Assembly: GCF_010728325.1 (NCBI RefSeq)
Contig: NZ_AP022570.1
Coordinates: forward strand, 1,426,001-1,490,000
Source: Mycolicibacterium poriferae
GTDB lineage: Bacteria; Actinomycetota; Actinomycetes; Mycobacteriales; Mycobacteriaceae
Length of the DNA stretch: 64,000 nt
Direction of reading: 5' to 3'
Shown: positions 15,443-40,664 of the stretch, piece by piece
How the letters are laid out: every line of letters starts with the position of its first letter
Numbering within the stretch: position 1 is the first letter of the stretch
Made by a program: the position numbers and the translations under genes
The notes under the pieces: generated by a model
Database searches by the model: none
Told to the model about the DNA's origin: nothing
What the model saw: the letters and a program-made list of their open reading frames with translations, nothing else

Positions 15443-15547
15443 ATGCCTTCTCTCGAAGAAAGCCCAAAGTTCCTAGTGGGCAGCTTCCGTGTCCGAACGC
15501 TACGACCCCCGAAAGGGGAAGTGGAGCGAACCCGGCCACTGGTCTAG
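15443..15547 (+). CDS. Candidate 34-residue small protein gene
   Basis: ATG 15443 is preceded by an almost perfect Shine-Dalgarno sequence (GGGAAGGAG, spacing about 2-3 nt) and opens 34 codons (MPSLEESPKF, ending ERTRPLV). The TAG stop shares a CTAG with the stop codon of the opposing DUF262 gene. The product is basic and has no recognisable motif. A strong ribosome site in an otherwise empty gap is the only support. Confidence 0.3.
   Translation: MPSLEESPKFLVGSFRVRTLRPPKGEVERTRPLV
15507..15518 (+). terminator. Small GC hairpin between convergent genes
   Basis: CCCC-GAAA-GGGG forms a short stem with a stable GNRA-type tetraloop between the convergent HhH and DUF262 genes. No T-tract follows, so it is at best a weak, possibly bidirectional, terminator. 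It lies inside the candidate 34-residue ORF. Confidence 0.25.
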
Positions 15548-18500
15548 AACCCCGGATACTTCTTCCAGATGCGTTGTGTCGCGGTGCTGTCGAAGGAGTA
15601 TTCGTCAATCTGCCAGTCCGGAAATTCAACGAGGTCGTCAGCAAGCTCGCGAATAACATCTTGGAGCTCGAGAGGCTCTAACCACTCGGATGGGATGGCG
15701 TCGATTCCGCGCATTGCGCCGAGCAGATTGCCGGCGATTGCACCGGTGGAATCGGAGTCACCGCCGTGATTCACCGCCAGTAGGACGCCTTGCCGAAAGT
15801 CGTGGGCGACCAGGGTGCAGTACAGCGCGATGGCTAGCGCTTCGTCCGCGACCCAGCCGGCTCCTAGTTGGGCAATGGCTTCGTGCGGCGGGGTCGTGGA
15901 TCGCGCAAGTTTGCCGGCGAGGGTGAGAGCGTCCAGCACCTCCTCGTGATCGGGACGGGAAGCTAGAACCGATTTCGCCTCGGCCAGCCCTTCAGGCAGC
16001 GAGAAGTCGCGCACTATGGCGAAGGTGAGAGCTGCGAACACGCCGCCAGCCAGGATGCCTGTGGGGTGCCCGTGGGTGAGCGCACAAAGACGCGCTCCCA
16101 AATCGAATGCCGCTTGTAGATCATTTCCACGTGATGCGGCCGCCGCGTACAGCCCGGCGGGAGCAACCCGCATGACGCCGCCGCATCCTTTACTGGTGTT
16201 GCGGGCTGGCTCACCGAGCGCAGGCATGTCACGCAACGCAGACAGGCAGGTGTTGCCAGGCGCACGCCGATTGTGCAGCTCCGCCTGGCCGAACAACCAT
16301 CCCTTCTCGTCTTCGTCCAACAGGTCGATCCGGTTGTTGGGGCGTTCGCCCTGCGTCAGCAGCCACCGAAGATACGCATGTGCGGTAACGCCCTCCTCGG
16401 TGGTGACGCCCTTCATCGAGCTACGCACCCAGCTACGAATTAGTCCTTCGGCGGTGAACAGTGTCATTTGGGTGTCGTCGGTGATGGCCCCGAGACGGCC
16501 GTAGGCAGGCGCGTAGTTGGTGATGCCGTCGGGCCCAAAGCGGGTCAGGATAGAGTCACGATCCAGGAACTCCACCGGAGCTCCGAGAGCGTCGCCGACG
16601 GCCCCACCCAACAGGCACCCGCGAAACCGCGCCCTTCTGTCAGGCTTGGCCGCTGCACTCCGATCAGCGTGGGAGCGCTGCGTACGAGCCGACGGTATGT
16701 AGCCGAACTGCTCCAACCGTCGCCGCGCGACGCTGATCTCTTCCTCGCTGAACAACTCAGAGAACTGCGGCTCGACGACGAGTGCTTCCACGGTGAGGTC
16801 CAGACGTCCTCGTTCCCATAGCTCGGCGAAACCGTCGGAGATGGCCGGGGAGGCGAGGAGCCTGTGCGCTGTCTCCTGCGGTCCGTGTTGAGAGAGCATG
16901 CTCAGGAAGTACGTGGCGTTATATCCGGCCTCACCGCGGCCGCGGTCATAGACGGCTTTCATTCGCCGCGCGAACTCAGCCTCAACGACACTCTTCGATG
17001 ATTCAGGAGGGGGCTCAGCCGGTGCGGACGGCTCGCCTGCTGCAGCAGCCCCCTCGCTCTCGACGAACCCGAGCAGTGCATCGACCGAGGTGAATACCTG
17101 GTACCCGAGTTCCTCCAGCCGGGGAAGATCGGCGTCTTCGGGATCAAGTTCGAGCACGACAGGTGAGCCAACCCCGTGCTGTAATCCGTCAGGCCAGAAT
17201 GCTTCCGCAACGGCCAGCTCGGCGCCACTTACCGGGTCGGGGATCTCGGTGTCGATCACCGGGGAGGCGAATCCACGGTCCTCCAGCTCGGCAATCAGCG
17301 CGCGCACCTGTTCGGCGCGCGGGTCGTCGATGACTTCGTCGGCAACCTGGAGCCGTTCCAATAACACGTTGTCGTGGGGCACCGCAGGATTGCGCAGGCC
17401 TTCCAAGAATGACTGGGCCGAGGCCGCCAGCAATTCACGGCGGGCCGCGAGGAAATCGAGGTACCGTTCAACGCGCCACAGTTCTGGATCGGTCGGAATC
17501 CATTGCGATTCCAGAACGCCAGGATGTTTTGCCTCTACTTCGGGCAGATACTCCGCGGGATCGCGCATCCCGACTTTGATGTTGGTGTCCTGGGTAAGGA
17601 AGCAGAAGTTCGCCAGCGCGTTGATCTCGTTGCGATCGAATCCATGCTTGCGTAGTAGCGCCTTCGGGAAGATGTGATGCACCTGCAGTGAGGTCAGTTT
17701 GCCTAGCAGTTCGGCACGCAATTCCAGCCCGCTGCCGAAATCGCGGGCACCGTCCACGCGGGTCAGCAGGTAGAGCAGCGGATAGAAGCGGGATCCGCGT
17801 GTCGCGCCGGCGAAGTCATCGGGACTCACTGCCAGGCGGCCGCCTCGAACGCGTTCCAGTGTCGAGATCAGCGCATCGACCCCGCCGCGCTCGACAGCGT
17901 CGTAATCCTGCTGCAGGTAGGTTTCGGTGGAACCGCTGAATCGTCCCCACAGTGCCGAGTGCACATACCAGTAGAGGACTTTGTCGCGATGTGTGCTATC
18001 GGTGAAACCGCCGCCGCTGAGCTGGAGTAGCCGGGTGATGACCGGTGTGGCATAGCGGCCCATGAGTACGCGGTCGTGGTCGAGGCCGAGCCGTCCGGAC
18101 GCCGCGTCGAGGAACGTGCCGATGTGATTCACCGACTTGCCGAGGGCCGACTCGAAGTCGGTAGCCGACACGTCACTCAGCGAGGAGAACAGCGCTCTCC
18201 CGGTTGCGACGGCGGTCGCATTGCGCAGAAGCCAGTCCAGCGAGAAGCGAAAACCGGCCTTCTTCCACCGGTCGAGATGGTCGCGGAGTTCTTTGCGCGC
18301 GTCCGGCCATTCGGCACACAGTTTGGCCAGAGCCAGATCACCCTTCGAGAGCTTGGTGCCACCTGAGTTGACTTTGTTGAAGATGTCGACGACCTCGTCG
18401 ACGGTCTTGCCGGCGCCGGTGATCTTCTCGGAGTTGAAGTCGCGGTTGTCGATTTCTTTGATCCGGTTGAGGCGCGCGAGGTACGTGTTGAGCACCTCGC

Positions 18501-18951
18501 GTTCCACATCGGGAAACGCCGACAGGTATTCGAACGGGCCCTTGCGGAAGAGTTCGGTGACGTTCACCCAGGTCGGGTCGCCCACCATCTTGGTGGGAGC
18601 GTAGAACTCGAACGACTCGGTCTCGACGTTGAAATGCAACCCGGTGAATGCGCTCGCATCGCCTTCGAAGAACGGCGGCGGGGTGCCACGGATGACGCCG
18701 TACATCGAGGTCACGCGCTGCTGACCATCGAGCAACAATTGCCTGGTTCCGCTGCCTCCGGCGGCGCCACGCACCGTGATGTCCTCGGAGGTCGTTTCCC
18801 ACATCAGCAGACCGCCGACCGGGTAGCCGCGATACAACGACCGCATCAGGCCGCGGACCTGGTCGCGGTTCCAGACGTACCCGCGCTGGAACTCCGGCAG
18901 AAGCACAACCCCGGAGTCGATCTCATCCAGCAGGGTGGACAGGCGCGTCAT
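15544..18951 (-). CDS. GmrSD-type nuclease (DUF262/HNH) fused to ADP-ribosylglycohydrolase
   Basis: The 1135-residue fusion has an N-terminal DUF262/ParB-like domain with the diagnostic DGQQR at residues 75-79 (LLLDGQQRVTSMY). A DUF1524-like HNH segment follows, with VHHIFPKALL near 425. A linker region (about 480-740) contains FWPDGLQHGVGSPVVLELD, reminiscent of a degenerate nuclease-like fold. The C-terminal ~350 residues are an ADP-ribosylglycohydrolase with its three hallmarks: GAVGDALGAPVEF, TDDTQMT and GGDSDSTGA. GmrSD enzymes are GTP/NTP-dependent type IV restriction nucleases that cut modified DNA. DraG-type hydrolases remove ADP-ribose from proteins or nucleic acids. The fusion is last in the five-gene operon, 13 nt after the UvrD gene. 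I infer an effector linking ADP-ribose removal or sensing to cleavage of modified DNA. Confidence 0.9.
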   Translation of the reverse strand: MTRLSTLLDEIDSGVVLLPEFQRGYVWNRDQVRGLMRSLYRGYPVGGLLMWETTSEDITVRGAAGGSGTRQLLLDGQQRVTSMYGVIRGTPPPFFEGDASAFTGLHFNVETESFEFYAPTKMVGDPTWVNVTELFRKGPFEYLSAFPDVEREVLNTYLARLNRIKEIDNRDFNSEKITGAGKTVDEVVDIFNKVNSGGTKLSKGDLALAKLCAEWPDARKELRDHLDRWKKAGFRFSLDWLLRNATAVATGRALFSSLSDVSATDFESALGKSVNHIGTFLDAASGRLGLDHDRVLMGRYATPVITRLLQLSGGGFTDSTHRDKVLYWYVHSALWGRFSGSTETYLQQDYDAVERGGVDALISTLERVRGGRLAVSPDDFAGATRGSRFYPLLYLLTRVDGARDFGSGLELRAELLGKLTSLQVHHIFPKALLRKHGFDRNEINALANFCFLTQDTNIKVGMRDPAEYLPEVEAKHPGVLESQWIPTDPELWRVERYLDFLAARRELLAASAQSFLEGLRNPAVPHDNVLLERLQVADEVIDDPRAEQVRALIAELEDRGFASPVIDTEIPDPVSGAELAVAEAFWPDGLQHGVGSPVVLELDPEDADLPRLEELGYQVFTSVDALLGFVESEGAAAAGEPSAPAEPPPESSKSVVEAEFARRMKAVYDRGRGEAGYNATYFLSMLSQHGPQETAHRLLASPAISDGFAELWERGRLDLTVEALVVEPQFSELFSEEEISVARRRLEQFGYIPSARTQRSHADRSAAAKPDRRARFRGCLLGGAVGDALGAPVEFLDRDSILTRFGPDGITNYAPAYGRLGAITDDTQMTLFTAEGLIRSWVRSSMKGVTTEEGVTAHAYLRWLLTQGERPNNRIDLLDEDEKGWLFGQAELHNRRAPGNTCLSALRDMPALGEPARNTSKGCGGVMRVAPAGLYAAAASRGNDLQAAFDLGARLCALTHGHPTGILAGGVFAALTFAIVRDFSLPEGLAEAKSVLASRPDHEEVLDALTLAGKLARSTTPPHEAIAQLGAGWVADEALAIALYCTLVAHDFRQGVLLAVNHGGDSDSTGAIAGNLLGAMRGIDAIPSEWLEPLELQDVIRELADDLVEFPDWQIDEYSFDSTATQRIWKKYPGF

Positions 18952-18964
18952 CGCGTTCTCCTGT

Positions 18965-21061
18965 TCAGTTGTTGTCGAGGGCGGTCAGGAACGGGCTCGG
19001 CTCGCCGTGCCAGGTGATGAGCAGCTGCTCGCGCGCGCGGGTGCACGCGACGAAGAGCAGGCAGCGTTCCCGTTCCAGGTCTTGCTGATGTGTCTGTTTG
19101 TCATCCTCGGCAGGGGTGACGGCGTTGGCCGCGGGAACATGTTTGGCACCAACTCCCGCGACGCACACGCATCGGAATTCCAGCCCCTTCACGCGGTGCA
19201 TGGTGCCGACGCGGACGGCATCGTCATCGTCGGAGGCCTTTGCCAGGTCGACGGAGTCGATGGCGGCCTTACGCAGGGCGTTCTCGATCTTCGACGTCAG
19301 CCACTTGGCCCGGACCGCGATCCCGATCTCCGACGGCGCGATGCCGCTATCGACCCACTCTTTGACCGAGGCAGCGATGAACTTCGCCTCTGCTTCGGCA
19401 CTCTCAAAACCGTTCAGCGCCGGGGGCTTCCCATGAACCGAGGATTTGCAGCCGGCGATGGAATCCAAGCCGCCTTCCATATCGTCGATCGGTTCGCCGC
19501 GCAGCAGGCCCAGGCTCCAACCGAGAATCTCGGCGGTGGTGCGGTAGTTGATGTTCAGCCGCGAGGACCGACCAGCGATCTTGATGCCGACCTCGCGCAG
19601 GCTGACCCGGTTGTCGTAGATGCGCTGGTGGGTGTCCCCGGCAATGAAGATGTCGTCGGGAGCTTCGTCGACGGCGGCGCGCAGCAGCCGCCACTGGTCA
19701 GGGCTGAGGTCCTGGGCCTCGTCGATGATGATGTGGCGGAACGGCTTGTCCGGGGATTCCTCCAGGAGGCGGGTTGCCTCCCGCCGGATGGTTTCGTGCG
19801 TCCAGACACCCTGCCGGGTCAGCGTCTGCTCGAATTCCCAGATCGCCTGCCACACCTGTGCCCGCTGCGCAGCTCCGAGGGCGCGGCCGCGGCCGGTTCG
19901 TTTGGCGGCCAGGTACTCATCGGCGGTGCTGATACGACGGGCCAGCACCACCTGCCGCCATTCCTCGGACAGGAACACCGGGGTGAAGCTGAGGCCGAGT
20001 TCGCCGATCAGCCCGGTCCACAGCGCCTTCTCGTCCTCGGAGCCGAGCATGTAGGGCGCTCCGCGAGTCCTGCGGAAGATGCGGTGGGCGATCCGATCGA
20101 CGTGCGACACGTCGATCCTGCTTTCCACTTGCTCGTCGTCGATCAGCATGTCGAGCCCGGATTGCAGCGTCTCAGACAGTGTGGAGGTGAAGGTGGTGAC
20201 GAGGACCTTGCCGTCCCCGCGGGTGGCGAGCATGCGTGCCCGGTGCAGGGCGACGACGGTCTTGCCGGTGCCGGGGCCGCCGGTCACCCGGGCCGGTCCT
20301 TTGTAGGCGGCATCGACGACGGCGCGCTGGGTGGGGTGCAGGTACACCCGCCAGGTGGCGAACGGGTAGGCGAATACGTCCATCAGTTCGTCGGGGCCGT
20401 TGACGAGGACGACGCGGTCGCGGCTGCGCAGGATGGCGGCGTCGATGTCCTCGGTGTCGACGGGTTCGTTGAGGATCTGCGCGCCGAGGTCAGCCCACAC
20501 CTCCTCGGGGGTGAAGCCGGCGGCGAGGCCGAACAGCACATCCCACTGCGTCTCGGGAAGGAAGGATTTCGCGGCATCGAGTTGGGCGGAGTCGGTAACG
20601 GTGCGGGCGAACGCGAGCACCTTCTCGTCGATGCCGAGCTTGGTGAGTTCGCCGTCCTTGACGTGGGCGAAGAGCGGGGCGTCGGCGGTTTTGGCGGCTG
20701 CTGCTCTTTCGGGGATCTGGCGGTCGAGTTCGGCTTCGTCGCGGATCTCGATGCCGCCGGTGGCCGAGTTCACGGAGACGTTGCTGCGCTGCGCCCAGGC
20801 GTAGGCGTCGTCGTGGTGCAACACCTTCAGCAGGGTGTAGACGTCGCCGCTGACGGGGGCCAGCACGATGCCGCGCCAGGCCTGGTCGATGCGGATCGAC
20901 CGGAACCGCGGGTTGCGGGCGTTGTTGATCTTCTCCAGATGCAGCCCGGTGTGGGTGGCGGCATCGAACTCGTCGAAGACCTCGGCGACCCGTTTTGCTA
21001 CCGGCTTCTCCATCTTCGCGAGGTCGGTGATGAATCCCTTGTCGATGGCAAGTGTGGGCAT
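18965..21061 (-). CDS. UvrD-family helicase with RelE-like N-terminal domain
   Basis: The 698-residue superfamily 1 helicase starts at ATG 21061, chosen for the GGAAG site upstream and because longer frames are low-complexity Ser/Thr nonsense. Residues 1-92 resemble a RelE/ParE toxin fold (GLHLEKINNARNPRFRSIRI, then YTLLKVLHHDDAYAWA). The helicase has Walker A GGPGTGKT at 261-268, the Walker B motif IIIDEAQDLSPDQW, motif III AGDTHQRIYD and motif V GTMHRVKGLEF. Helicases of this build are common in actinobacterial genomes. Here it sits 19 nt after the methyltransferase gene and 13 nt before the DUF262 fusion, so it is a component of the operon. The RelE-like part may bind RNA or DNA ends rather than act as a toxin. 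Confidence 0.9.
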   Translation of the reverse strand: MPTLAIDKGFITDLAKMEKPVAKRVAEVFDEFDAATHTGLHLEKINNARNPRFRSIRIDQAWRGIVLAPVSGDVYTLLKVLHHDDAYAWAQRSNVSVNSATGGIEIRDEAELDRQIPERAAAAKTADAPLFAHVKDGELTKLGIDEKVLAFARTVTDSAQLDAAKSFLPETQWDVLFGLAAGFTPEEVWADLGAQILNEPVDTEDIDAAILRSRDRVVLVNGPDELMDVFAYPFATWRVYLHPTQRAVVDAAYKGPARVTGGPGTGKTVVALHRARMLATRGDGKVLVTTFTSTLSETLQSGLDMLIDDEQVESRIDVSHVDRIAHRIFRRTRGAPYMLGSEDEKALWTGLIGELGLSFTPVFLSEEWRQVVLARRISTADEYLAAKRTGRGRALGAAQRAQVWQAIWEFEQTLTRQGVWTHETIRREATRLLEESPDKPFRHIIIDEAQDLSPDQWRLLRAAVDEAPDDIFIAGDTHQRIYDNRVSLREVGIKIAGRSSRLNINYRTTAEILGWSLGLLRGEPIDDMEGGLDSIAGCKSSVHGKPPALNGFESAEAEAKFIAASVKEWVDSGIAPSEIGIAVRAKWLTSKIENALRKAAIDSVDLAKASDDDDAVRVGTMHRVKGLEFRCVCVAGVGAKHVPAANAVTPAEDDKQTHQQDLERERCLLFVACTRAREQLLITWHGEPSPFLTALDNN

Positions 21062-21080
21062 TTGTTCTTCCGTTGCTTGA

Positions 21081-24000
21081 CTATTCGGAGTGACGGGGTC
21101 CGCGGCCGGCGGGCGGATCGGCGAGCGGAATCCAGCCCTTGCCGCCGTTGGCGATCGCCTCGGCCATGCGGTCGTAGGCCTCCAGGACGAGGCGTTTGGA
21201 GCGGTACTCGCCGAAGTCCTTCTCCTCGTACTTGCGGATGACGAAGAACGAGTCGAGGACATGCTCGGCTTCGTCGCGGATGAGGCCGTAGACGTGAAGG
21301 AAGCCGGCGTCGAGGTCGGCGCGGAGTAGGGCACGACGTTCGGGGTCCCAGTGGAACGGAGGACCGTTGTCGCCGAGGTCTTCGGCATACGGCTGCAGGC
21401 GGTTCGACGTGTACGAAAGCTCTACAACATGCGGCCGAACCCAATCCGTGAGGGAAACCTTGGATAGCCAAGGTGCCTCGGCGTCGAATCCTTTCGGTGG
21501 GATGGAGGCAATTTGCTTAACCACGCCGTATGTCATATGGATTCCGCTGATCTTCTGACGCGCGATGTAGTCGAACGCAATGCTTGACCACAGAGCATGC
21601 AGGTTCACAGCCGCGGTGCTTGGCTGGGGGAGGGCCAAGGGAAAGATATGGCCCACAGCCGATGTTGGAACAACAGACGCTACAAATGTGCGCTCATTCG
21701 TCGCGTGAGTGATGTCGCGCCAACCGAGAAGCCAGCCTCGATCCGACTTTCCTCGTAGTTTTTCGACAACTTCTCGGCGGTCTACCCAGTAACGAGCCAA
21801 AGGTTCACACGTCGGCTCATCATGCGCGTAATCGTTGATCCGGGGAAGAGCGCCTTTGTTCAGTTGCGCTTGCGTCGCATCCTTATACGTCGTGCACCGA
21901 TGATCGAAATAGCTCAACATCCGCGCTTCGTACAGCGGCACATATTCGATTCCGCCGCGCGTGTAGGACCAACCGTTGAACGTCGCGTCGGCGAGGTCGT
22001 CGGCGGTGTGGAAAAGCCCGGAGTCGTTGGCCATGTGGAATAGCGTCGCGAACGACAGTCCCCAGGGGTTGCCGTCCGAGTCGTCGTCGCGGATGAGCAC
22101 GGGATGCCGTGAGTAGATGCCGAGAGTGATGTCGGCGTCCGTGCGGCTGCGGAACATCGGCAGAGTGCCGGTATTAGGATTGAGAGCGAGAACTTCCTTG
22201 GCGGCCAACTGGAATCGCTTCTCAGGGACGTCGGAAATGTGGCGGTTCAGGAAGGCGAATTTGGTGCGCTCGATCGTGCGGTTGTATCCGGCCATTACAG
22301 TGACGGCAAACCGCGCACGGTTGGTCACGTCGCGGAAGATCTTGGCTTCGTTCTCGAAGTCGTAGAAGGCATACAGGCGATGACTGCTCAGCGTGTCCGC
22401 GAAGAACGGCGCGGTCGTCTTGTCGGTGGCCAATCCGGTCGGGGTGATAATCCCGGCCGCGCCGTCGGGGCCGGTGACGGTGCGCATGGTTTCGGCGAAC
22501 ACGCTGTAGGTGTTCACATCGCCCTGCCCGGTGAACGGGTAGCGGTCGCTCTTGAGGAGCAGGTGTGCGGTGCCGTCGGACTGCCGCAGCGCGGCGAGGT
22601 ACGCCGCGTACAGGTCGGGGTCGGTATCGGCGAGCTCGTCGATCATCTTTTTGCGGATGGCCGCGGTGGCAGCACCTTCGATGTCGGGGCGGCCGGCGTT
22701 GCCGAAAAACTCCTTGTCTTGGATCTTCACCCGCTCCCACGGCGGGTTGCCGACGACGCAGGAGAACCCGCCGGTCCATCCGGTGTCGGAACTATCGGCG
22801 GACCCGTCGTCGGGCACCGTGAAGATACCGGGGAACTCCAGGTGCCAGTGGAAGAATCGGTACTGCCGGGCCAGGCGAGTCACCTGGTTGATGATGGTGT
22901 CGGGCACCGATTCCGGCGTTTCGGATAGTGCCCGTACGGTGGCGTGGGTGATGCCCTGGCCAGAGCTGGCCGCCCCGGTCTTGGGTTGCACGAAAGCCGC
23001 GCACCACGCGTCGGCGACGAGTTTGGCGGCCACCAGGTCGGGGTCGGCTTCTAGACGACGCCAGGCGTCGGCCCGTGCTCGCAGGGCGGCCACCGAGGCG
23101 ACGGTCCCGGTGTCGGCGTCGTGGGCGGCCATGGTGAATTGGCTAGTTTCGACGTTGAGGGTTTCAGGTCCGAAACTTAGCGTCAGCTGATCCTGGTCGG
23201 ATTGGCGTTCGGATTTGTTGCGGGCCTTGAGCTTCTTGGTCCAGTCCTTGTCGTCATCGCCGATCGCAACGAATGCGGTATCGGGGATGTTGTGCCGTAA
23301 CAGCTCCGGTGTCGTTCCGAGAAGCGCGTTGCCGACGCGGAAGTGGGCGTCGAGGAAAGGGAACGGGCGGTCGGCGTCGAAGGCCTCAAGCCACAGCGCC
23401 ACCTTGGTGATCTCGATGGCCAGGTCGTTGAGGTCCACGCCGTAGACGCAGCGTTCGATGATGTCGGCGTTGGCCGCCCGCAGCGCGGCGGGGGTGGGTT
23501 CGGTGTCCCCGGTCCGCACCGTGGCCAGGGCGCTGGCGATCCGCCGGGCGGCGGCGACCACGAAATGCCCGCTGCCGCAGGCGGGGTCGACGACGGTGAG
23601 GTCCAGCAGCGCCTGTTCGGGGTTCGATTGCCGGACGGCTTCGTCGATCAACGGGTCCAACGCCTCGTCGAGAACCAGGGCGATCAGATCCGAGGGAGTG
23701 TAGTAGGAGCCGGACTTCTTGCGGTCGTTGCCGGTCGCGACGTCGAGGGTGAACGCCCGCTCGTCAGCGTGATAGCGCGGCGTGTAGGCCAGCAGGCCCT
23801 CGTACATGCCGCCGAGTTCCTCGCTGTCGAGGTTGCGGTAGTCCACCGGTCGGGGCAATCCGGTGACCGGGTCGTCGATCTGGGCCAGCGCCCGCACCGC
23901 GGCCAGTAGCGCCCGGTTGGGCAGCTTGGCGCCGTCGAGAATGCTCAGCGCGTCCCGCGTGTACAGGCTGGCGCCGAGACCGCTCAACCCGAGCGCGGGC

Positions 24001-25193: not shown

Positions 25194-28066
25194 CGGGCAC
25201 CTGCCTCGGGCAGGAACACGTAGATGCCGAGGACGTCGGCGGGCGGCAGGAACTTGACCGTGGGTGCGCGGCCGCCGGCTTTGGAGGCGCTGCGCACCGT
25301 CTGATGCTCGGACACCAATTCCTTCGCGGCATGTCGACCGGTCTCGGTGAGGTGCTGGGCGAGAGCGGGGAGGCGGCCCAGCGCGCGGCCGAGCTGCATG
25401 CGGGCTAGCGCATCGTCGACGTTGCCCGACGCCGTCAATGCCAGCAGCGCGTCCACCTCGGGCTGCGGCAACCAGGTCAGCTCATCCCCGGCTGCAGTGA
25501 AGGCCAGGAACTTCGCTTCTTCGGCGACCTGGGTGACGGTGGTGGCCGAGCCGGGGATGCTGATCTCCAGTCGGTGCCGCACCATCAGCAGCGTCGTCAC
25601 CTTGCCGACGCTGGTGCGCATCACCCCGGCGCGGCGCGCGGGCCGGGCCGCTGGATCCAGTCGGGAATCGAGTGCGGCGTCGAGGACGTACCGCGACAGG
25701 GCGTCGACCGTGGCGTCGGTGCGGGTGAGCACGCAGTGCCCCGCCGGGACGGGCAGCGAGCGGTGGAAATGCAGCCGACCGCCCTTGGCCGGCGGGAGTT
25801 GGTCACGTACCGCGGCCGGCAGGGTGTCGATGATCGCAGTGAATCCGTCGCCGGTATCGGTGACCGGCGCTCCCATCAGCGATAGCGCGGTGCGGGTGAA
25901 GGTTTCGACATCAGCCGGACCGCCGAGCGCGCGGCGCACCTCGGTCAGGGCCTGTTCGACGGTGTCGGGTTTGAGTCCGGCCTGCCGGAACCGGGAGCGC
26001 GACGCCTTCTCCCGTTCGGCGGCGTTGGTCCACTCGACCTCGACCTGATCGGCCAGGGACTTCGAGGTGGCCTCGGCGAAGTCGAGGGCCAACTGTTCGG
26101 CTTCCTTGCCGCGCAACAGCAGCGACTCCCAGATGGCCTTCATCACGGTGGTGGAGTCGACCGGGATCGGCACGGATACCCCGATGCTACGTTTGATGTT
26201 CTCGTGGCGGCGGATGAGGACCTGCAGCACGATGCCGTCGATGCCGTTGTCCTCGCCGTAGTAGGTCACGGTGCGCACGGTGGGGGCTTGCTGGCCGAAC
26301 CGGTCGACCCGGCCCTCGCGCTGTTCGTGCCGGGTGGGGTTCCACGCGAGGTCGTAGTGCACCACGGCGGTGAAGCCGTCCTGCAGGTTGATTCCCTCGG
26401 AAAGGCAGTCGGTCGCGATCAGTAGGCGGGGTCCGTCGTGGGCGCTGAGGGTGGCGACGCGGGCTTCGCGCTCCTCCGGCGGCAGCGTGCCGGTCACGGC
26501 GTCCATCCCGAGATCCTTGACCTTCGACAGGGCCGAACCTAGGTGCTCGGCGAGATAGTCGGCGGTGGGGATGTAGCGGCAGAACACGATCGGGTGATAC
26601 CCCTGGTCGAGCAGTTCCTTCAGCAGCGGGACGAGGCGTTTCAGCTTCGCGTCCGAGCGCGGTCCCTTGAGTGCGGCGGCCTGGGCGGCCAACTCGCGCA
26701 GACGCTTCCGCGCTCTCGTGTCGGGTTCATCGGTGTCCCCGGTATCGGCGCCGACGGCAACGTCCTCGGCTTCCAGCGTGTCGTCCAGGTCGGTGTCCAG
26801 TACGCGCGGTTCGGCGTAGGTGTCCACCTCGGTCTCGTCGTCGGCCGCTGATACCGCCGACCGGTTGAGCAGGGTCTGCTCGGCGGCCGCGGGGCTGGAG
26901 GCCAGGCACCGCAGCAGCGCGATGGCTGACCACCACCGGACACGCTGCCGTACCGCGCTGAGCTTAGGGTCGGCGACCTGTTCGCGGACATAGTCCATCG
27001 CGTCGTCGAACAGCTGGCGGTATCCGGCGGTGAGCTTGTAGGCGGTCTCGGTGGTTTCGCGCTCCGGGAACGGGGTGTCCTCCCGGAACTCTCCGCGCAG
27101 GTACTCCCGGATGTCGGCGCGTTGGCGCTGGATCATGTACCGGGCGAGCAGCTTGCGGTCGTCCTCGCGGTCACGGCCGGACAAGTCGGCGGGCAGGTCG
27201 CCGAGGCGGTCATCGAGCAGGCCGACCAGCGACTGCCACGCGGTGTCGTCGCCGCTGTGCGGTGTCGCGGTCAGCAGCAGCAGGTGACGGGTGTGATCGT
27301 CGGCGAGTTTGCGCAGCAGCGCGTAGCGCAGGTGCGCCTGCGACGACCTGCCGACACCGGCGGGCGCCACGCAGGTGTGGGCTTCATCAACGATGACCAA
27401 TTCCGGGCAGTGCAAAGCGAATTCGTCACGGCGGGTCTTCTGCTTGATGAAGTCGGTGGAGATCACCAGGTAGGGGTGGTGCTGATACACGTTGGAGCCG
27501 AACGGCACGCTGCGCATCAACCGGTTGACCGTCGACGGCAACAGTAGCTGCGCGTCGATGCCGAACTTGTGCCGGAGCTCGCTCTGCCATTGCGGGGCCA
27601 GCTGCGGCGAACACAGCACGGCCAGGCGTTGGGTTTCGCCGGTGGCCAGCAGTTCGGCGGCGATGAGGCCGGCCTCGACGGTCTTGCCGATGCCCACGCC
27701 GTCGGCGATCAGCAGCCGGGTGACGTCTTGGTGGGCCGCCATCATCAGTGGCACAAGTTGGTAGTTGCGCGGGGTCACGGCCAGTCGGGCGAAGGATCGG
27801 AACGGCCCGCCGCTGGCGCGAAATGACAACCGCAGCGCATCGCGCAGCAGTCGGGCGCGGCCTGCGTCGCCGCGGTCATCGACGGTGGGCGCTTCGAACG
27901 TGGCGGCGGCGAAGTCGTCGATGTCGGTCAGGAGCACGGTGGTCTCGTGTTCGTGCCCGCCGAGTGGTCGGACCAGCAGCGTGCCTTCCGGTGAGCCGGG
28001 CAGCACCAGCCAGTCCCGGCCGCGGGCATTCACCAGGCTGCCGGCTGGGTAGTCGAGGGTGGTCAT
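25190..28066 (-). CDS. SNF2/RapA-type helicase-like ATPase (DrmD-like)
   Basis: The 958-residue protein carries Walker A GVGIGKT at 123-129, DEAH at 227-230 and motif VI REGRVDRFGQ near 585. The N-terminus (AGSLVNARGRDWLVLPGS) recalls the RapA-like beta domain. This family of double-stranded-DNA translocases is the DrmD component that, with an adenine methyltransferase, defines class 1 DISARM. It overlaps both neighbours by 4 nt (the DUF1998 helicase upstream and the methyltransferase downstream), implying fixed stoichiometry. Expected role: ATP-driven DNA remodelling or translocation during self/non-self discrimination. An acidic insert lies between the helicase lobes (around residues 410-450). 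Confidence 0.9.
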   Translation of the reverse strand: MTTLDYPAGSLVNARGRDWLVLPGSPEGTLLVRPLGGHEHETTVLLTDIDDFAAATFEAPTVDDRGDAGRARLLRDALRLSFRASGGPFRSFARLAVTPRNYQLVPLMMAAHQDVTRLLIADGVGIGKTVEAGLIAAELLATGETQRLAVLCSPQLAPQWQSELRHKFGIDAQLLLPSTVNRLMRSVPFGSNVYQHHPYLVISTDFIKQKTRRDEFALHCPELVIVDEAHTCVAPAGVGRSSQAHLRYALLRKLADDHTRHLLLLTATPHSGDDTAWQSLVGLLDDRLGDLPADLSGRDREDDRKLLARYMIQRQRADIREYLRGEFREDTPFPERETTETAYKLTAGYRQLFDDAMDYVREQVADPKLSAVRQRVRWWSAIALLRCLASSPAAAEQTLLNRSAVSAADDETEVDTYAEPRVLDTDLDDTLEAEDVAVGADTGDTDEPDTRARKRLRELAAQAAALKGPRSDAKLKRLVPLLKELLDQGYHPIVFCRYIPTADYLAEHLGSALSKVKDLGMDAVTGTLPPEEREARVATLSAHDGPRLLIATDCLSEGINLQDGFTAVVHYDLAWNPTRHEQREGRVDRFGQQAPTVRTVTYYGEDNGIDGIVLQVLIRRHENIKRSIGVSVPIPVDSTTVMKAIWESLLLRGKEAEQLALDFAEATSKSLADQVEVEWTNAAEREKASRSRFRQAGLKPDTVEQALTEVRRALGGPADVETFTRTALSLMGAPVTDTGDGFTAIIDTLPAAVRDQLPPAKGGRLHFHRSLPVPAGHCVLTRTDATVDALSRYVLDAALDSRLDPAARPARRAGVMRTSVGKVTTLLMVRHRLEISIPGSATTVTQVAEEAKFLAFTAAGDELTWLPQPEVDALLALTASGNVDDALARMQLGRALGRLPALAQHLTETGRHAAKELVSEHQTVRSASKAGGRAPTVKFLPPADVLGIYVFLPEAGAR

Positions 28067-31000
28067 GCGTTAGCCTTCGCGTCGCCGAAGATGCCGCCGT
28101 GGTTGGCGATGGTCTGCAGCCAACCGCCCTCGGCGTCCTTATAGTCGAAGCGCAGGACCAGCCAGCCGGCTTCGTCCTCCAGCTTCATCCGGGCCTGCTC
28201 GTCCTTTTCCTGCTGATGCGAAGTTTCGTGATGGGGGCCGTCGACGAAGATGGCGACGTCCATACCATCGGTGTGATAGGCGAAGTCGGGCCGGACGTAG
28301 AAGCCCGTGACGACCTGCTGCGCGTCATCGGGCAGCCGGTAGCCGTGTGTGTCGAGAAGCGTGAGCAGCTTCTTCTCCAGCTCGCTGTCGCAGGCTTTCG
28401 TCAGCCGTTCGAGGTGGGCAGCGCGGTCTTCGCCGCCGGCTCCTACTTGCACGTTCGACGCGGCAAGTCGCTTAAGCAGGTCGAGCACGCAGTGGCGGTC
28501 CAGGTGTTGGTGATCCCACTGGTTGCTGTAGGACAGCAGGCAGTCGTAGCAGGCCTGTGCGCACTCTTCGATCGCATGCGGGGCGCGGAGCAGATCCTCG
28601 CCGGTATCGGGGTTGAAGTGCAAGATCTCCAGCGCCTTGCGCGCCACCTGGTTGAGCTGGCCGTCTTCGGTCGCCAGCCGCCGCAACACCCCCGCGCCGC
28701 CCTCGGCCGCCTCGAAGAACAGCAACCGCGACCAGGCGTCGTCGCCGGTGTTGGAGGGCAGGGCCTCGACCGCCAGTTCCGAACTCTCCAACTGGTAGAC
28801 GGCTTCGATTCCGCGCTTGAGGGCATACATCGCGGCCATCCGCTGGTCGGTGCCGATCGACGGGTCCAGATGCAGCAGCAGCGCGTTGCGATGGTCCTCG
28901 ACGTACGGGATCACCCGCTGGTAGCGCGGTGCTTCACCGTGGACGTTCTTGGCCAGGTCGGCCTCCTTGGACCAGCGGCCCTCGACGGTGTCCAGCACGT
29001 AGCCCCGGACATCCTTGTCCTTGCGGCGACGCAGCCCGACATTCATCCGGCGGATCAACGCGGTGTCGCCGTAGGTCATGGTGCCCAGCTCGTGGCCGTC
29101 GTCGGTGATGGTGCTGGTGAGTTGTCCGGCCCGAACCCCATGCGGGACAAAACGGATCGAGGTGACGATCTCGTGGCCGGCACGCTGGCGTTCCTCTTCG
29201 TCGGCGCTGATCCGGTCGCGGCGGCGGGTCTTCACCGACAGCAGCCGCATCAAGTTGCCCATCGTCGCCTCGATGTCGAACGGCGCACCGCAGTGCTGGC
29301 AGAGGTCGGGGTCGGTGGATTCGTGCAGGTAGCCGCATGTGCCGCAGCGCTTGATCTCGGTGATGTGGACGCCGGTGCCGTCATCCCGGGCGGGCAGGCT
29401 GACCCGGTTGACCTCGTACCGGGCGCCCTCGTGATAGATGAAGGCACCCGGGCCGAACTCGCTGATCGCCATGAATCTGGGGCGCTGGATGAAATCACCC
29501 TCACCGCCGCTGCGGGTGCGGCGCGCGGCCGGAATGAACGCCGAGAGCGGAAGCCGCGGGAACGAATAACCGGGCAGGAAGCCTTCGGACGCGAAGTAGC
29601 GGTAGGTGTAGAAGTCGCCCTGTAGTACGTCGTCGACCTGACCCTTGAGCAGGTCGAGGGCGGCGCGGGCCTCGGAGATGCGGCCACGGGCTCGCTGTTT
29701 GGAGCTCTCGGAAGCGCCGATGGTCTTGAGGATCTGGTTGGCCTGATCGAGTTCGTTCTGCGCTTCGTTGTACAGGCTGCGCCAGCGGTCGGCGGCGCGG
29801 TTGAAGCGATCCGGTGCGTTGTCGACGGTGTCGGTGACCCAGGATTCGGTCCACCACGGGGCGTTGGTCACTTCGGCGGTCGGCTTCAGGACTGCGGTGA
29901 TGGCGGTGATCGCCTCGGCGCGGCTAGATTTCGATTCGATGGTCGCGATCACCTCGGCCCGCAGCGGCTGGCCGGGCTGGTCGATCTCCAGGAGGTCGAC
30001 CATGCTCGCCTTGAGGTCGAGCCCGCATTTCACCAGCCAGATGGAGTGGGCGTGGGCGCGCACCAGGTCCTGGTTTCCCAGCTCCAGCCGCGGTGGCGCG
30101 ACGGCGCCCGCGACCATGTCCTTGCTGCGGCGGAAGTAATAGGCGTCGTGCGCGTTGCCGGTAGCGCAATAGGTCAGGGCGATAGCGGGTTGGCCCGAAC
30201 GGCCCGCGCGTCCCGACCGCTGCGCATAGTTGGCTGGCGTAGGCGGAACATTGCGCATCCCAACCACATTCAGACTCTTGATGTCGACGCCGAGTTCCAT
30301 CGTGGGCGAGCAGTACAACACCGGCAAACGCGCCTCGCTGAACACTTCCTCGCGTTTCTGGCGTTTCGACGGTTCGACCTGGGCCGTGTGTTCACGGGCC
30401 TCCAGCCCCACCAGCGACTTCGCGGTCTCGGCGTAGAGAGCTTTGAAGTACGGGTTGACCCGCCCCTCGGTCTGATTGCTGCGCAGTGGGTCCCGCGCTC
30501 GGTGCTCACCGCTACCGGGATGCCAGGCGATGAGGTCGGCACGTAGCTGGTACCCGGTGGCCCGCTTGTGGACCGGAACCCGGACCAGAATGCCTGCTTT
30601 GGCCATGACATCCATCAAATGTTCGATGAGGGCTTGGGCATCCGCAGGTTTCAGTGGGTGCTGAAATCCGGGGAAGCGATCGGCCCGGCGCAGCCAGCGT
30701 CCGTAGGCCCCCAACCCGGACACGTAGAGATCGGCCCCGATTCCGGCCACGGCCTTGGGCCGTCCGCTCGGGTAGGCAAGACCGCTATAGGTACCTGCGT
30801 CATCGGAGATGGCCCAGGGGTCCTTCAGCCATTCACGGCTCGCGCGGCGGACGGCGTCGAACTTCTCGTCGGTGAGGAACTCGGTGTCGATACAGAGATG
30901 TCGACGCATCTCATCGAGGAGAACATGCATGATTTCTCGGCGGGTTTCGGTGCTCGCACCCGCCAGGGGTTCCCCGCAGGGCGCCCATTTGTCGTCGTCG

Positions 31001-33201
31001 GCGGCGAGTTCGTTCACCCCGTCATAAGCCAGCTGCAGCTGTCCGGTCTGTTCCAGGTTGGGCATGGTGATGCGCCAGCCCCGCTTGAGGTCGGCCCACA
31101 GCCGGTAGGTGACGACGTCGCGCAGTGCACGGGTGATCTTCTTGCGGGGGATGGGCTCGTCGGCGGTGTCCTCGTCGCGGGCGAAGAGCGTCAACCCCTT
31201 CCCGCTCAACGCCTTGACGACCTCGGGGCCGAGGTTTTCGTCCGTGAGCGGTTCACCTTCGCGCTCCTGGTAGTCGGCCGCCGCCCGGTAGAGGGCGGAG
31301 CGGATCAGGCCGACCAGCACGAAGTCGTTGAAGTGGCCGGACTGCAGGCTCGCGTCCTGGCGGTTATCGCTGAACGCCAAGAACTTTCGGGCGTCGTCAT
31401 CGAGGTCGGCCTCGCCTCTGAGGGTCCGCACCACCGACTGCGACAGCACCGTCACCGCACTGGCACGGCCCTCGGTGCCGAGACTGGCAACTCGGGAGAA
31501 CTGCGACTGCTGACTGCTCTCATAGCTGGTCTTGCAGGACGGGCAGAAATCCAGGCGTTCGAAGAACGCCACCGGCATGCCGTCATCGGTGATGGTGCCG
31601 AACTCGTCGACCCGTAGCGATGCCGGCAACCTTGAATTCCGTGCCTTGTCGAGAACCTGCCCCGCGCCGCTGGACACCACCCAGTCTTCGGGGACGAGGT
31701 CGAGCAGGGCCGGGTCGCTGGGGTCCGGCCAAGGCTCCTTCGTCACGAACAGCAGTCCGTCGGCCTCCGGGTTCTCCACCAGGTCCGAGTTGGGGATACG
31801 CGGGCTGAAGTTCTCGCCGCCGCGTTCCAGGTTGACCACCAGGAACTCCTGACCGCATTCGCGGCAGAACGCCAGCGGGAACAGCGGCTGGCCCAGCGGG
31901 CGGTTGGGTGCGCTGCGCTGGTACTGAGTGGTGAGGAAGCGCTTCTCCGGTGGCTCCAGCGTGGTGTAGACGGTGTCGCCCTTGCCGATGAACTGGTGCA
32001 GCTTGAAGGCGAACAGGGCGCGGCCCTGCGGATCGCGGGCACGCGAGCCGGCCAGCAGAAGTTCCTGCAACTGCTTCCGGCACACTGCCTCGTCCATACC
32101 GGTTTCGTCGTGCAGCTTCTTGGCGGCATCGCTGAGCTTGGATGGTGAGCGGCGGGCCAGCTTGCCCTCATCGTCGGTGTGCAAGCCGAAGTGCTGCTCG
32201 GTCCAGACGGCCAGGGGGTCGGCCTTCAGCTGCTGCCATTCGGTTGGTGTCTGTTCGCTGAGCCGTGCGGTGAGCGCGGCCGCATCAGCGTCTCCGGTCG
32301 TCGCGCGGCGCAGGGTTTCCCCGACGATGTTGGTCGCGGGAATCTCGATGCCGAAGATTCTGGTCGCCAGTGCTGCGACTTGCTGGCGTTGCTCGGCCTT
32401 CGTGCCTGGGCCGGCCAGCGTCGCGCTAGTGCCGATGCACTGGACATCGTCTGAGGTGACAGCGCCGCGCAGCCGGCGAACGAGCATCGCGACGTCGGCG
32501 CCCTGGCGGCCGCGGTAGGTGTGCAGCTCGTCGAGAACTAGGAAGGACAGGTTCGCTGCACTGCTGATGAGGTTCTTGCGCTCCTTCGGGCGGGTGAGCA
32601 TCAGTTCCAACATGACGTAGTTGGTCAGCAGGATGTCCGGGGGAGAGGCGAGCGTCTTCTCGCGCTCCTCCCTGTTCTCCTGCCCCGTGTATCGCGCGAA
32701 GCTGACCTTGGGGTTTGTCTTGCCGAGGAACTTCTCCAGCTCGTTGCGCTGGCTGTTGGCCAGGGCGTTCATCGGGTAGACGATGATGGCTCGCACACCC
32801 TTGCCGGAACCCTCCCGCAGCACGCGGTCGACGATGGGAACGATGTAGGACATCGACTTGCCGGAGCCGGTGCCGGTGGTCAGCACGTAGGACTCGCGGC
32901 GGTTGGCGATCTCGAACGCGTCGGTCTGATGCCGGTGGAAGGCGATCTCCTTGCCAGCAGGGTCACGGAAGATGTTCGTCGCCTCGGGATCGAGAACCCC
33001 GTTGCCAACCAGTTCGCCGACGGTACCGCCGGACTCGAACGCCGGGTTCAGCGCGAGCCACGGCTCGGGCCACAGCAGACCTGCGGCGATCTCCTGTTCG
33101 ACCTTGCTGCGGATCTGGTCGTCCTTGATCTCGAGGAAACCCTTGACGAAATTCTCGTAGTCGCCCAGTACCTCCCCGAGGACACCAAACGCGTCCATCA
33201 C
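28063..33201 (-). CDS. DUF1998 helicase with C-terminal Vsr/DUF559-like nuclease (DrmA/DrmB-like)
   Basis: The 1712-residue superfamily 2 helicase has Walker A TGTGSGKS at 109-116, a DELH box near 223-226 and motif VI QRSGRAGRSG near 993-1002. Zinc pairs occur in the middle (CRECG, CPSC) and later (CGTCG, CQHCG), and DUF1998-type cysteines near the end (CAQACYDCLLSY). The last ~110 residues form an apparent PD-(D/E)XK fold: ELEKKLLTLLDTHGY, then VRPDFAY, then VAIFVDGPHH near 1650 and GWLVLRFDY, the Vsr/DUF559 pattern. It combines the roles of DISARM DrmA and DrmB and adds a nuclease. It is the first gene of the five-gene operon. The start is GTG 33201 or the adjacent ATG 33198, with GGGGGTGAAG upstream. 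Confidence 0.9.
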   Translation of the reverse strand: MMDAFGVLGEVLGDYENFVKGFLEIKDDQIRSKVEQEIAAGLLWPEPWLALNPAFESGGTVGELVGNGVLDPEATNIFRDPAGKEIAFHRHQTDAFEIANRRESYVLTTGTGSGKSMSYIVPIVDRVLREGSGKGVRAIIVYPMNALANSQRNELEKFLGKTNPKVSFARYTGQENREEREKTLASPPDILLTNYVMLELMLTRPKERKNLISSAANLSFLVLDELHTYRGRQGADVAMLVRRLRGAVTSDDVQCIGTSATLAGPGTKAEQRQQVAALATRIFGIEIPATNIVGETLRRATTGDADAAALTARLSEQTPTEWQQLKADPLAVWTEQHFGLHTDDEGKLARRSPSKLSDAAKKLHDETGMDEAVCRKQLQELLLAGSRARDPQGRALFAFKLHQFIGKGDTVYTTLEPPEKRFLTTQYQRSAPNRPLGQPLFPLAFCRECGQEFLVVNLERGGENFSPRIPNSDLVENPEADGLLFVTKEPWPDPSDPALLDLVPEDWVVSSGAGQVLDKARNSRLPASLRVDEFGTITDDGMPVAFFERLDFCPSCKTSYESSQQSQFSRVASLGTEGRASAVTVLSQSVVRTLRGEADLDDDARKFLAFSDNRQDASLQSGHFNDFVLVGLIRSALYRAAADYQEREGEPLTDENLGPEVVKALSGKGLTLFARDEDTADEPIPRKKITRALRDVVTYRLWADLKRGWRITMPNLEQTGQLQLAYDGVNELAADDDKWAPCGEPLAGASTETRREIMHVLLDEMRRHLCIDTEFLTDEKFDAVRRASREWLKDPWAISDDAGTYSGLAYPSGRPKAVAGIGADLYVSGLGAYGRWLRRADRFPGFQHPLKPADAQALIEHLMDVMAKAGILVRVPVHKRATGYQLRADLIAWHPGSGEHRARDPLRSNQTEGRVNPYFKALYAETAKSLVGLEAREHTAQVEPSKRQKREEVFSEARLPVLYCSPTMELGVDIKSLNVVGMRNVPPTPANYAQRSGRAGRSGQPAIALTYCATGNAHDAYYFRRSKDMVAGAVAPPRLELGNQDLVRAHAHSIWLVKCGLDLKASMVDLLEIDQPGQPLRAEVIATIESKSSRAEAITAITAVLKPTAEVTNAPWWTESWVTDTVDNAPDRFNRAADRWRSLYNEAQNELDQANQILKTIGASESSKQRARGRISEARAALDLLKGQVDDVLQGDFYTYRYFASEGFLPGYSFPRLPLSAFIPAARRTRSGGEGDFIQRPRFMAISEFGPGAFIYHEGARYEVNRVSLPARDDGTGVHITEIKRCGTCGYLHESTDPDLCQHCGAPFDIEATMGNLMRLLSVKTRRRDRISADEEERQRAGHEIVTSIRFVPHGVRAGQLTSTITDDGHELGTMTYGDTALIRRMNVGLRRRKDKDVRGYVLDTVEGRWSKEADLAKNVHGEAPRYQRVIPYVEDHRNALLLHLDPSIGTDQRMAAMYALKRGIEAVYQLESSELAVEALPSNTGDDAWSRLLFFEAAEGGAGVLRRLATEDGQLNQVARKALEILHFNPDTGEDLLRAPHAIEECAQACYDCLLSYSNQWDHQHLDRHCVLDLLKRLAASNVQVGAGGEDRAAHLERLTKACDSELEKKLLTLLDTHGYRLPDDAQQVVTGFYVRPDFAYHTDGMDVAIFVDGPHHETSHQQEKDEQARMKLEDEAGWLVLRFDYKDAEGGWLQTIANHGGIFGDAKANA

Positions 33202-35099: not shown

Positions 35100-35303
35100 T
35101 CACTCTATTGGCGCGACACACTCCACTAATACCAGCGCGACCCTGACGCGGGCGTCTTTGCCCAGGATGTTGTAGCTATTCGTTAAGGCGAGGATCGCGA
35201 TCTCGGCAACTGCGTCAATTGAGCCGAGACCATATGGAATTCTGATCACAGTTCGGCTGGCTAATCCATCAAGGCGATATGCGGAGAGGCAACGTGGCGG
35301 CAC
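35100..35303 (-). pseudogene. Possible remnant related to the adjacent lipase-like gene
   Basis: A 67-codon minus frame ends just upstream of the lipase-like gene. Its segment SIDAVAEIAILALTN resembles HDAVGELVVLALTN inside the lipase-like protein (about residues 358-372), and an RIP/RLP pair precedes both. The frame is closed by a stop immediately upstream and overlaps the start of the divergent nuclease gene, so it looks like a decayed fragment of a related gene. It could also be a small real gene. Confidence 0.3.
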
Positions 35304-36001
35304 GATTGACTAGGACTGACCGTATACACCGGCTTGTCGCGAAGACGCGGAGGCGTGTCGACAAGATCCCCGAGGGAACGCGCCTTCTAAGACATATGCC
35401 CAACAGCATGCTGGGCGTTCTCGTCAGAGAAGCAGGTTACGAGCGGAGTTCAAGAAAGTTGCTGGAGGAGCTTGCTCGTCGGCTCCGCGACGAAGGTGTC
35501 GACTTCAGCCCGAAACTGGGGGACCCGGCCAACACCCCCAAGACGCGCATCTATTTCTTCGATGTGGAGCGGCCGGTGAAAGGGCTTCAACCGACCCGTC
35601 AGCTCTTTAAAGACGAAGCGCAACTGTCGAGGTTCTTGTGGCTGAACCAAGACTTCTTGAAGTACGCCACCAAGAACCTGCGAATTACCGACCGAGAAGC
35701 GCGACTAGGACCGGGAGCGAAGATTGACCTCCTGGCTACCGACACGAAGACCGGGGAGCTGGTAGGGATCGAGCTCAAGGCGGAGGAACCCGATCAGGGC
35801 ATCGTCGCGCAAGCGGCAAGGTATATGAAGGCGCTGAAGGCCAGAGCCGTGTCGGAAGGGCACTCGGGCGCTCGATTGATGATCGTTACTGGGCAACCGG
35901 ACGAGGACCTGGCCGAGCTCGTTCAGACCCAGTCGGAGAAATTGGGAGTGAAAACCGATTGGCTTCTCTATCGGGTTCAATTCGATTTGCGGCCAGCATG
36001 A
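35294..36001 (+). CDS. NucS/DUF91-like PD-(D/E)XK nuclease
   Basis: The 235-residue protein starts at GTG 35294, chosen because GGAGAGG sits 4 nt upstream; ATG 35279 is also in frame but has no ribosome site. The N-terminal ~100 residues are basic and helical. The C-terminal half has the nuclease core of NucS-like proteins: AKIDLLATDTKTGELVGIEL followed by KA, giving the catalytic D...E-x-K, then QAARYMKALK. NucS enzymes act on mismatched or branched DNA. This stand-alone version inside a defence island is more likely an accessory nuclease. It is transcribed divergently from the lipase-like gene. Confidence 0.8.
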   Translation: MAARLTRTDRIHRLVAKTRRRVDKIPEGTRLLRHMPNSMLGVLVREAGYERSSRKLLEELARRLRDEGVDFSPKLGDPANTPKTRIYFFDVERPVKGLQPTRQLFKDEAQLSRFLWLNQDFLKYATKNLRITDREARLGPGAKIDLLATDTKTGELVGIELKAEEPDQGIVAQAARYMKALKARAVSEGHSGARLMIVTGQPDEDLAELVQTQSEKLGVKTDWLLYRVQFDLRPA

Positions 36002-40445: not shown

Positions 40446-40546
40446 CGCGCACCTCCTTTCGCACTTCGGTACGTGCAGATTACCCGCGACAGCGGTCGCC
40501 TCCGACTCTTGTGGAAGCCGCTGACAAGAAGGGACGCAACGGTGAG

Positions 40547-40555: not shown

Positions 40556-40664
40556 GGGGCCGGCCTTCCGGTCGGGTTGGTGCGTTGGCATGTCGGACCC
40601 GCGACGGACGCTCAACACACACGGGCGCGACCCCAGTCACGTCCACGACAGACGAGGGGCCGAC

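Follow-up and report, generated by a model that had tools for sequence, protein, structure and literature searches.

ARMADA is a defense system described in a 2025 preprint (PMC12458937). According to that preprint, Type I operons are generally ordered YprA, BrxHII, PglX, and Type II operons BrxHII, PglX, YprA, the latter almost always followed by a RelE-UvrD gene. In the Escherichia coli Type II operon all four genes are needed, including this last one (ArmD), and infected cells are reported to remain viable. Here we describe a five-gene operon, A-B-C-D-E, in a 64,000-nucleotide (nt) stretch of Mycolicibacterium poriferae (the window; NZ_AP022570.1, positions 1,426,001–1,490,000, within a 5.71-Mb contig of a 5.93-Mb genome). 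It is probably an ARMADA operon of the Type I order with a two-gene cassette, D-E, at its 3′ end, which includes a nuclease resembling type IV restriction enzymes and was acquired in a single capture by a mycobacterial clade; the operon probably works as proposed below. This reading rests on gene content, gene order, homology, motif conservation, the pairing of D and E in several genomic contexts, and the grouping of D and E from ARMADA operons into one clade each; from these we infer the antiviral action and every biochemical step. ARMADA is already in print. Added here is the D-E pair on an operon of the Type I order, shared with DISARM, and it is this add-on common to both systems, not the five genes as such, that we find most interesting.

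Gene content and order of the operon

The five genes are co-directional on the minus strand (Table 1). A and B overlap by 4 nt, as do B and C, and gaps of 19 and 13 nt separate C from D and D from E. A reading of this DNA from its letters alone (the sequence-only reading) had reported five large coupled genes with 4-nt overlaps or gaps below 20 nt, and coordinates, overlaps and gaps all agree with it. The open reading frame (ORF) of D as listed has 807 amino acids (aa) and runs into C; the likely start is the ATG at 21061, since the resulting 698 aa is near the length of most relatives. Relatives were sampled by a collection scan from which 80 of 531 confirmed loci were taken (L031–L110; locus labels L031–L262, protein labels P0xxx and family-search labels Gxxx are sample names internal to this analysis). 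The coupling goes beyond chance: in six relatives the D match begins 18–23 bases past the end of the C match (measured likewise, the window gives 23), and 70 of the 80 loci have A-B-C contiguous. The five-gene operon is confirmed. Among named protein relatives, the closest are mycobacterial.

Gene A matched DEAD (98.3 bits), Helicase_C (52.4 bits) and MZB (36.5 bits) in Pfam, with the MZB (DUF1998) domain in the same chain as the helicase core, and its C-terminus matched DUF559 below the cut-off (17.6 against 20.6 bits). PADLOC scored it at 374 bits for DruE3 and 49 bits for DrmA. The Walker A motif and the D-E-L-H of Walker B are kept in all 69 aligned rows, and the nuclease-like aspartates D1639 and D1654 in 62 and 61 of them. 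For B, Pfam reported Helicase_C and an SNF2 match under the cut-off. The best PADLOC model for B was PDLC02853 (888 bits, full length), labeled DpdE, followed by DrmD (284.9 bits), HmaA (189 bits) and BrxHI/HII (183 and 175 bits); in NCBIfam, B reached 310.8 bits for DrmD, where the cut-off is 610, and 112 bits for RapA. Both its G-K-T and D-E-x-H motifs occur in 73 of 73 sequences. C matched Eco57I (61 bits) and N6_Mtase (29.8 bits) in Pfam, scored 172.8 bits for DrmMI and 40.7 bits for PglX in PADLOC, and shares an N-P-P-W motif with all 74 sequences aligned. A, B and C thus keep the motifs of active enzymes.

In content and order, A-B-C appears to fit ARMADA Type I better than DISARM: a YprA/DUF1998 helicase, an SNF2 (BrxHII/RapA-like) helicase and a PglX-like methyltransferase follow one another in that order. 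Where Type I has an active Vsr-type nuclease at the C-terminus of the first helicase, that of the window has a putative nuclease-like end, and its fused DUF1998/MZB is Druantia-like rather than DISARM-like. The window differs from Type I in adding an ArmD homologue and a GmrSD-ADP-ribosylglycohydrolase; the main text of the preprint assigns ArmD to Type II (PMC12458937) and contains neither "GmrSD" nor "ADP-ribosyl". With the Type II operon (E. coli ATCC 8739 / NCTC 12900) the window has four protein types in common, including the RelE-UvrD protein, but the strict ArmA-ArmB-ArmC-ArmD order is not kept, as the ArmC-type gene of the window comes first. In a phylogenetic tree of A, the window protein grouped with 18 A-B-C helicases, and E. 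coli ArmC, E. coli DruE and a DruE-like protein encoded elsewhere in the window formed a group apart (99/97).

The sequence-only reading had described a DISARM-related operon with neither a separate drmB nor a PLD-type drmC and with two additional genes, all of which stands. It had also likened the first three genes to class 1 DISARM, for which ARMADA is the better fit. A DISARM variant would accord with the shared combination of SNF2 protein, methyltransferase and DUF1998, with the DrmD matches of B in both databases and the DrmMI match of C, and with the D-E pairs that close DISARM operons of other actinomycetes. However, the first helicase of the window is of the DruE kind with MZB fused in the chain, B lies far under the NCBIfam cut-off for DrmD, and neither DrmB nor DrmC is among the PADLOC matches listed for the five proteins. 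We therefore regard a DISARM variant as very improbable and rejected DISARM membership on account of the lack of drmB and drmC and the DruE-like helicase.

The D-E cassette

The sequence-only reading took D and E for proteins outside DISARM added to the operon. They are indeed two extra genes, but D, a homologue of ArmD, already has a counterpart in such systems. Aligned with ArmD of E. coli ATCC 8739, it is 37% identical over 710 columns and full length (E 1.8e-140). Pfam recognized the UvrD part only (UvrD_C 80 bits, UvrD-helicase 68.1 bits, run on the overlong ORF), and the Walker motifs are invariant in a 13-sequence alignment. A RelE domain had been proposed, and D has no Pfam match to RelE. 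The RelE-like label comes instead from the N-terminus, which is 41.7% identical over 108 columns to that of E. coli ArmD, called RelE-like in the preprint (PMC12458937). A BECR fold of the RelE superfamily at this end of D is putative.

E joins a GmrSD-family protein and an ADP-ribosylglycohydrolase in one chain, with Pfam matches to GmrSD_N (92.7 bits) and ADP_ribosyl_GH (261.4 bits). The GmrSD/HNH-like part spans approximately residues 1–755 and the ADP-ribosylglycohydrolase residues 778–1089. Among solved structures, E matched the DUF262 protein 7p9k, which we take to be BrxU (48.7 bits), and 2woe (61.5 bits). The D-G-Q-Q-R motif (D75–R79) and residues H425, H426, N448 and N457 are invariant in a 22-sequence alignment. 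Pfam found neither HNH nor GmrSD_C (DUF1524) in E, and we read H425/H426, N448 and N457 as a putative HNH motif. A C-terminal extension of ~200 aa, distinct from the ADP-ribosylglycohydrolase, occurs in E of L167 and L169 (955–956 aa) and in P0209, P0211, P0213 and P0218.

The ADP-ribosylglycohydrolase domain was present in two of the 120 best E relatives listed, P0126 (full) and P0127, an 831-aa protein on an 8,869-base contig and presumably cut by the contig end. The longest contig for P0126 and that for P0114, a relative of C, are both 31,861 bases long, and the two may lie on the same contig. The three fused sequences, including that of the window, are 85–87% identical in E, and the domain alone is 78% identical in P0126; they did not form one clade in the E tree (two changes, compatible with a single origin). 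A search with the domain alone recovered P0359, in which a relative (62%) is fused to a complete McrC domain, and P0361, in which the partner is a NUDIX domain. The domain was found in none of the 68 A-B-C loci counted (see below). In one limited literature search, the papers listed did not use the word ADP-ribosylglycohydrolase.

D and E occur together well beyond this operon. C turned up in 23 of the 401 genomes of the host family at E ≤1e-100; at E ≤1e-30, 66 of the 401 had E-type sequences, many of them ADP-ribosylglycohydrolases only. We examined 20 E places, a set that excludes the sites with an ADP-ribosylglycohydrolase alone, two GmrSD matches of 30% (G377, G530) and the fragment G395. 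D stood directly upstream of E in 13 of the 20 (split by the contig end in L163). At class level, a search with the 756-aa relative P0128 found E in 14 of 394 genomes and, besides the window's own, D directly upstream in 10 of 13. Taken together, D directly precedes E in 23 of 33 loci, mostly without A-B-C in the examined stretch. Nine of the 33 have co-directional DISARM genes upstream (L165, L250, L251, L253–L258; in L251 a DrmC piece only); D stands between them and E in seven and is absent in L254 and L255. The order in L257, for example, is DrmA-DrmB-DrmC-methyltransferase-kinase-D-E. Other E neighborhoods contain DrmD (L166, L175), HmaA (L182) or a type IIG enzyme (L172).

Trees of the two proteins support a single capture of D-E by this mycobacterial ARMADA clade. 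The 11 D sequences from ARMADA operons form one clade (100/100) with the DISARM-linked L165 as sister (100/99), and the corresponding clade of the E tree (99/96, counting P0126 and P0127) has the same sister (98/95). Since clade and sister agree, D and E seem to have arrived together in this clade. Transfer from DISARM to ARMADA is plausible from the nesting but not proven. Rows shorter than ~560 aa are left out of the D trees, as is L184, which shares a contig with L038; one version also omits L095 (long branch). D of L031 entered as a 580-aa call. P0126 and P0127 are labeled as ARMADA-operon rows in the E tree, their gene neighbors not having been seen.

The sequence-only reading had asked whether homologues of the last two genes are usually absent where the first three are present, and the answer differs between close and distant relatives and between D and E. 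Downstream content was counted in 68 loci, setting aside 10 of the 80 without contiguous A-B-C and two with less than 3 kb downstream; ORF calling misses genes in some relatives (e.g., L071, L078, L087). Where C is 74–86% identical (nine loci), D lies downstream on the same strand in all nine, directly in six and behind inserts of 1.1–4.8 kb in three; E is present in four, McrC and ADP-ribosylglycohydrolase in none. In L037 a remnant of E persists, and L038 extends only ~1.4 kb beyond D, where another gene begins. Among the 59 more distant loci, D never directly follows C and occurs somewhere in the locus in eight. McrC is encoded in 26 of these (always downstream, same strand), a DUF262 gene in four, and one or the other in 29. 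In L188 and in L084, a different DUF262 gene directly follows C. The family search added two loci with D and E, G336 (L164) and G641 (L163, L183); in G515 (L200) a C fragment is followed by a broken D.

McrBC beside DISARM-like and ARMADA cassettes has already been described (PMC11090510; PMC12458937). As in the window, type IV restriction genes come after the A-B-C core there, but the window clade has the GmrSD type in place of McrBC. Both kinds meet in L170, ordered A-B-C-McrB-McrC-D-E, and McrB-McrC-D follows A-B-C in L073 and L077 and also in L090 and L054, where D is cut by the locus end. Like the HEC-05/06 proteins embedded in Hma clusters, E is a DUF262 protein inside or behind another defense operon; it differs from GmrSD/BrxU type IV enzymes in that proteins of the window type mostly travel with a UvrD partner, and here also carry an ADP-ribosylglycohydrolase.

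Other genes sit in the C-D junction of some relatives. L183 encodes a 1155-aa protein there (1356–4823) with a SIR2 domain and a Dsr1 match of 170.9 bits. Trypsin-like peptidase genes occupy the junction in L032 (14284–15177) and L044 (14266–15186), which are 89% alike, and in L033 (14128–15288); in L032 and L044 a piece resembling the start of D stands before the insert. These inserts resemble the embedded genes of Hma clusters, as reported second-hand in PMC11411939.

Further genes follow C in L033 (15526–17796), L187 (12577–14409) and L040 (3086–4843). Those of L033 and L040 gave weak matches to type I specificity subunits (21.5 and 18.4 bits), and the L187 gene clusters with that of L033; in some relatives, C may work with a second protein that recognizes the target. 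Streptomyces A-B-C loci (L063, L064, L065, L068, L094 and others) have a gene of similar length (~413–425 aa) after C near position 14100; the one checked, from L063, had no family match.

Proposed function and competing explanations

We hypothesize that the methyltransferase C marks host DNA, and that incoming DNA lacking this mark, or damaged, would be located and processed by the helicases A and B and cut by the PD-(D/E)xK-like end of A, by analogy with ARMADA (PMC12458937). D would provide the ArmD helicase function, and E would cleave phage DNA whose modified bases escape the methylation-based layer. The label "methylation-guided" from the sequence-only reading is, in the same way, a presumptive one. 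T-even phages carry ADP-ribosyltransferases, and the ADP-ribosylglycohydrolase might, as a guess, reverse phage-placed ADP-ribosylation of defense proteins or DNA. For a GmrSD-family enzyme encoded next to BREX, a complementary role is described (PMC8565348), BrxU is reported to cleave DNA with many cytosine modifications (PMC12409352), and phage T4 is reported to inject proteins that block specific GmrSD variants (PMC12373910).

Several observations weigh against this reading of the operon. A, B and C gave only patchy matches (22–38%) to the ARMADA II proteins of E. coli ATCC 8739. The best label of B is DpdE, with DrmD models ahead of BrxHI/HII, and the best match of C is DrmMI, not PglX. 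The branch separating the A-B-C rows in the A tree reached only 74/73, with a program warning of long branches, and its 18 A-B-C helicases were hand-picked from those available. The Type I assignment rests on gene order, without a named Type I reference sequence. Regarding the cassette, E is absent from five of the nine close loci that have D, and L185–L188, where C is 69–72% identical, have A-B-C but no D in the examined stretch. Of the 13 pairs at family level, three have an interrupted E (L172, L181, L182) and one a truncated D (L171); the remaining seven of the 20 E loci, all of one genus, have no D but the same upstream gene (cluster c8, 7/7). The two trees also conflict. D of L170 groups with L182, L167 and L169 but its E with L172, and L181 sits with L168 in the D tree but with L167 and L169 in the E tree, suggesting that partners were exchanged at times. 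Finally, the spread of the DISARM label over the D tree is close to a chance distribution (as low in 210 of 500 shuffles).

An alternative is that A-B-C and D-E are two independent defense systems sharing one operon, with D-E acting alone like embedded HEC genes and A-B-C complete without ArmD. The occurrence of D-E without A-B-C in most examined stretches, the lack of a D directly after C in all 59 distant loci, and the SIR2 and trypsin-like genes found in the C-D junction all point this way, as does the statement that the GmrSD-like HEC-05/06 proteins embedded in Hma clusters act alone (PMC11411939, citing Payne 2024). Yet D is kept in all nine close loci while E is absent from five of them, so D looks tied to A-B-C; D also follows A-B-C behind McrB-McrC in four loci (L073, L077, L090, L054; the last two end within D), and ArmD is described as essential in E. 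coli ARMADA II (PMC12458937). Weighing these, we consider independence a serious possibility that falls somewhat short of being probable. Much the same may be said of an accidental fusion, in which the ADP-ribosylglycohydrolase has no defense role: it could well be so, although we would not call it probable. The domain is carried by only two of the 120 best relatives listed, is missing from L036 despite the same neighbors, and marks no single clade in the E tree; against this, it is present in three closely similar sequences, with its own part well kept in P0126, and P0359 joins a member of this subfamily to an intact McrC, which belongs to another type IV family.

Beyond the ARMADA operon of the Type I order with a captured cassette, which we favor, a broader and in our view unlikely extension would make D-E a self-contained, transferable RelE-UvrD and GmrSD-type nuclease unit that plugs into the 3′ end of DUF1998-methyltransferase operons (DISARM, ARMADA) and attacks modified phage DNA. 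ArmD of ARMADA II would then be the remnant of such a pair, and the ADP-ribosylglycohydrolase (on GmrSD here, on McrC in P0359) a shield against phage ADP-ribosyltransferases. Its likelihood is lowered by the conflict between the D and E trees over some cassettes and by the interrupted E in three of them.

Two printed families, DISARM and ARMADA, are tied together by one shared add-on, which suggests a rule whereby a type IV enzyme (McrBC or GmrSD) would often accompany helicase systems based on methylation and cover phages whose DNA is modified. Should the fused ADP-ribosylglycohydrolase prove functional, this would indicate that phages use ADP-ribosylation against restriction.

Genomic neighborhood

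Table 1 Genes of the operon and of its surroundings, with positions in the window.
Feature	Length	Position	Strand	Basis
A: YprA/DUF1998 (MZB) SF2 helicase, ArmC-type, PD-(D/E)xK-like C-terminus	1711–1712 aa	28063..33201	-	Pfam, PADLOC, motifs
B: SNF2/RapA-BrxHII-like helicase, ArmA-type	958 aa	25190..28066	-	PADLOC, NCBIfam, motifs
C: Eco57I/PglX/DrmMI-like adenine DNA methyltransferase, ArmB-type	1370 aa	21081..25193	-	Pfam, PADLOC, motif
D: UvrD/GajB-like helicase, RelE-like N-terminus, ArmD homologue	698 aa	18965..21061	-	Pfam, alignment to ArmD
E: GmrSD_N (DUF262) and HNH-like part fused to ADP-ribosylglycohydrolase	1135 aa	15544..18951	-	Pfam, solved structures
F: alpha/beta-hydrolase-like, Gly-rich stretch possibly membrane-spanning; 82 nt upstream of A	593 aa	33284..35065	-	
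Druantia-like pair, member 1 (DruH position)	1123 aa	6507..9878	+	no family match
Druantia-like pair, member 2: DruE-like DUF1998 helicase, ends just after MZB	1544 aa	9875..14509	+	
NucS-like (below cut-off)		35279–36001	+	
PDC-S11-like		36522–37592	-	106 bits
Uma2-type putative nuclease		39873–40892	-	

The surroundings of the operon look like a defense island. A Druantia-like gene pair, not mentioned in the sequence-only reading, lies convergent to it, ~1 kb beyond E. The DruE-like member scored 619 bits for DruE1 and 581 bits for DruE3 in PADLOC, has its MZB domain at residues 1444–1521, and is 27% identical to E. coli DruE in two stretches. A blastp comparison of its 1123-aa partner with E. 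coli DruH gave no match at E 1e-3, and the name Druantia III for the pair is at most putative. In L036, the same DruE-like gene (90%) is convergent to that locus's own A-B-C-D-E, and the same divergent NucS-like gene (75%) is present; E of L036 has 762 aa and lacks the ADP-ribosylglycohydrolase. E. coli Druantia III and ARMADA II are described as neighbors that synergize against a subset of phages (PMC12458937), and a similar Druantia-ARMADA pairing thus appears to recur in an unrelated host.

Gene F was considered as a further operon member and rejected. It had no Pfam or PADLOC match at E 0.01 and one NCBIfam match (E 0.0086) far under the cut-off. By tblastn among L031–L262, a relative was found in one locus only, L040 (Modestobacter), 43% identical over 592 columns and downstream of a partial C; F is probably not a conserved member.

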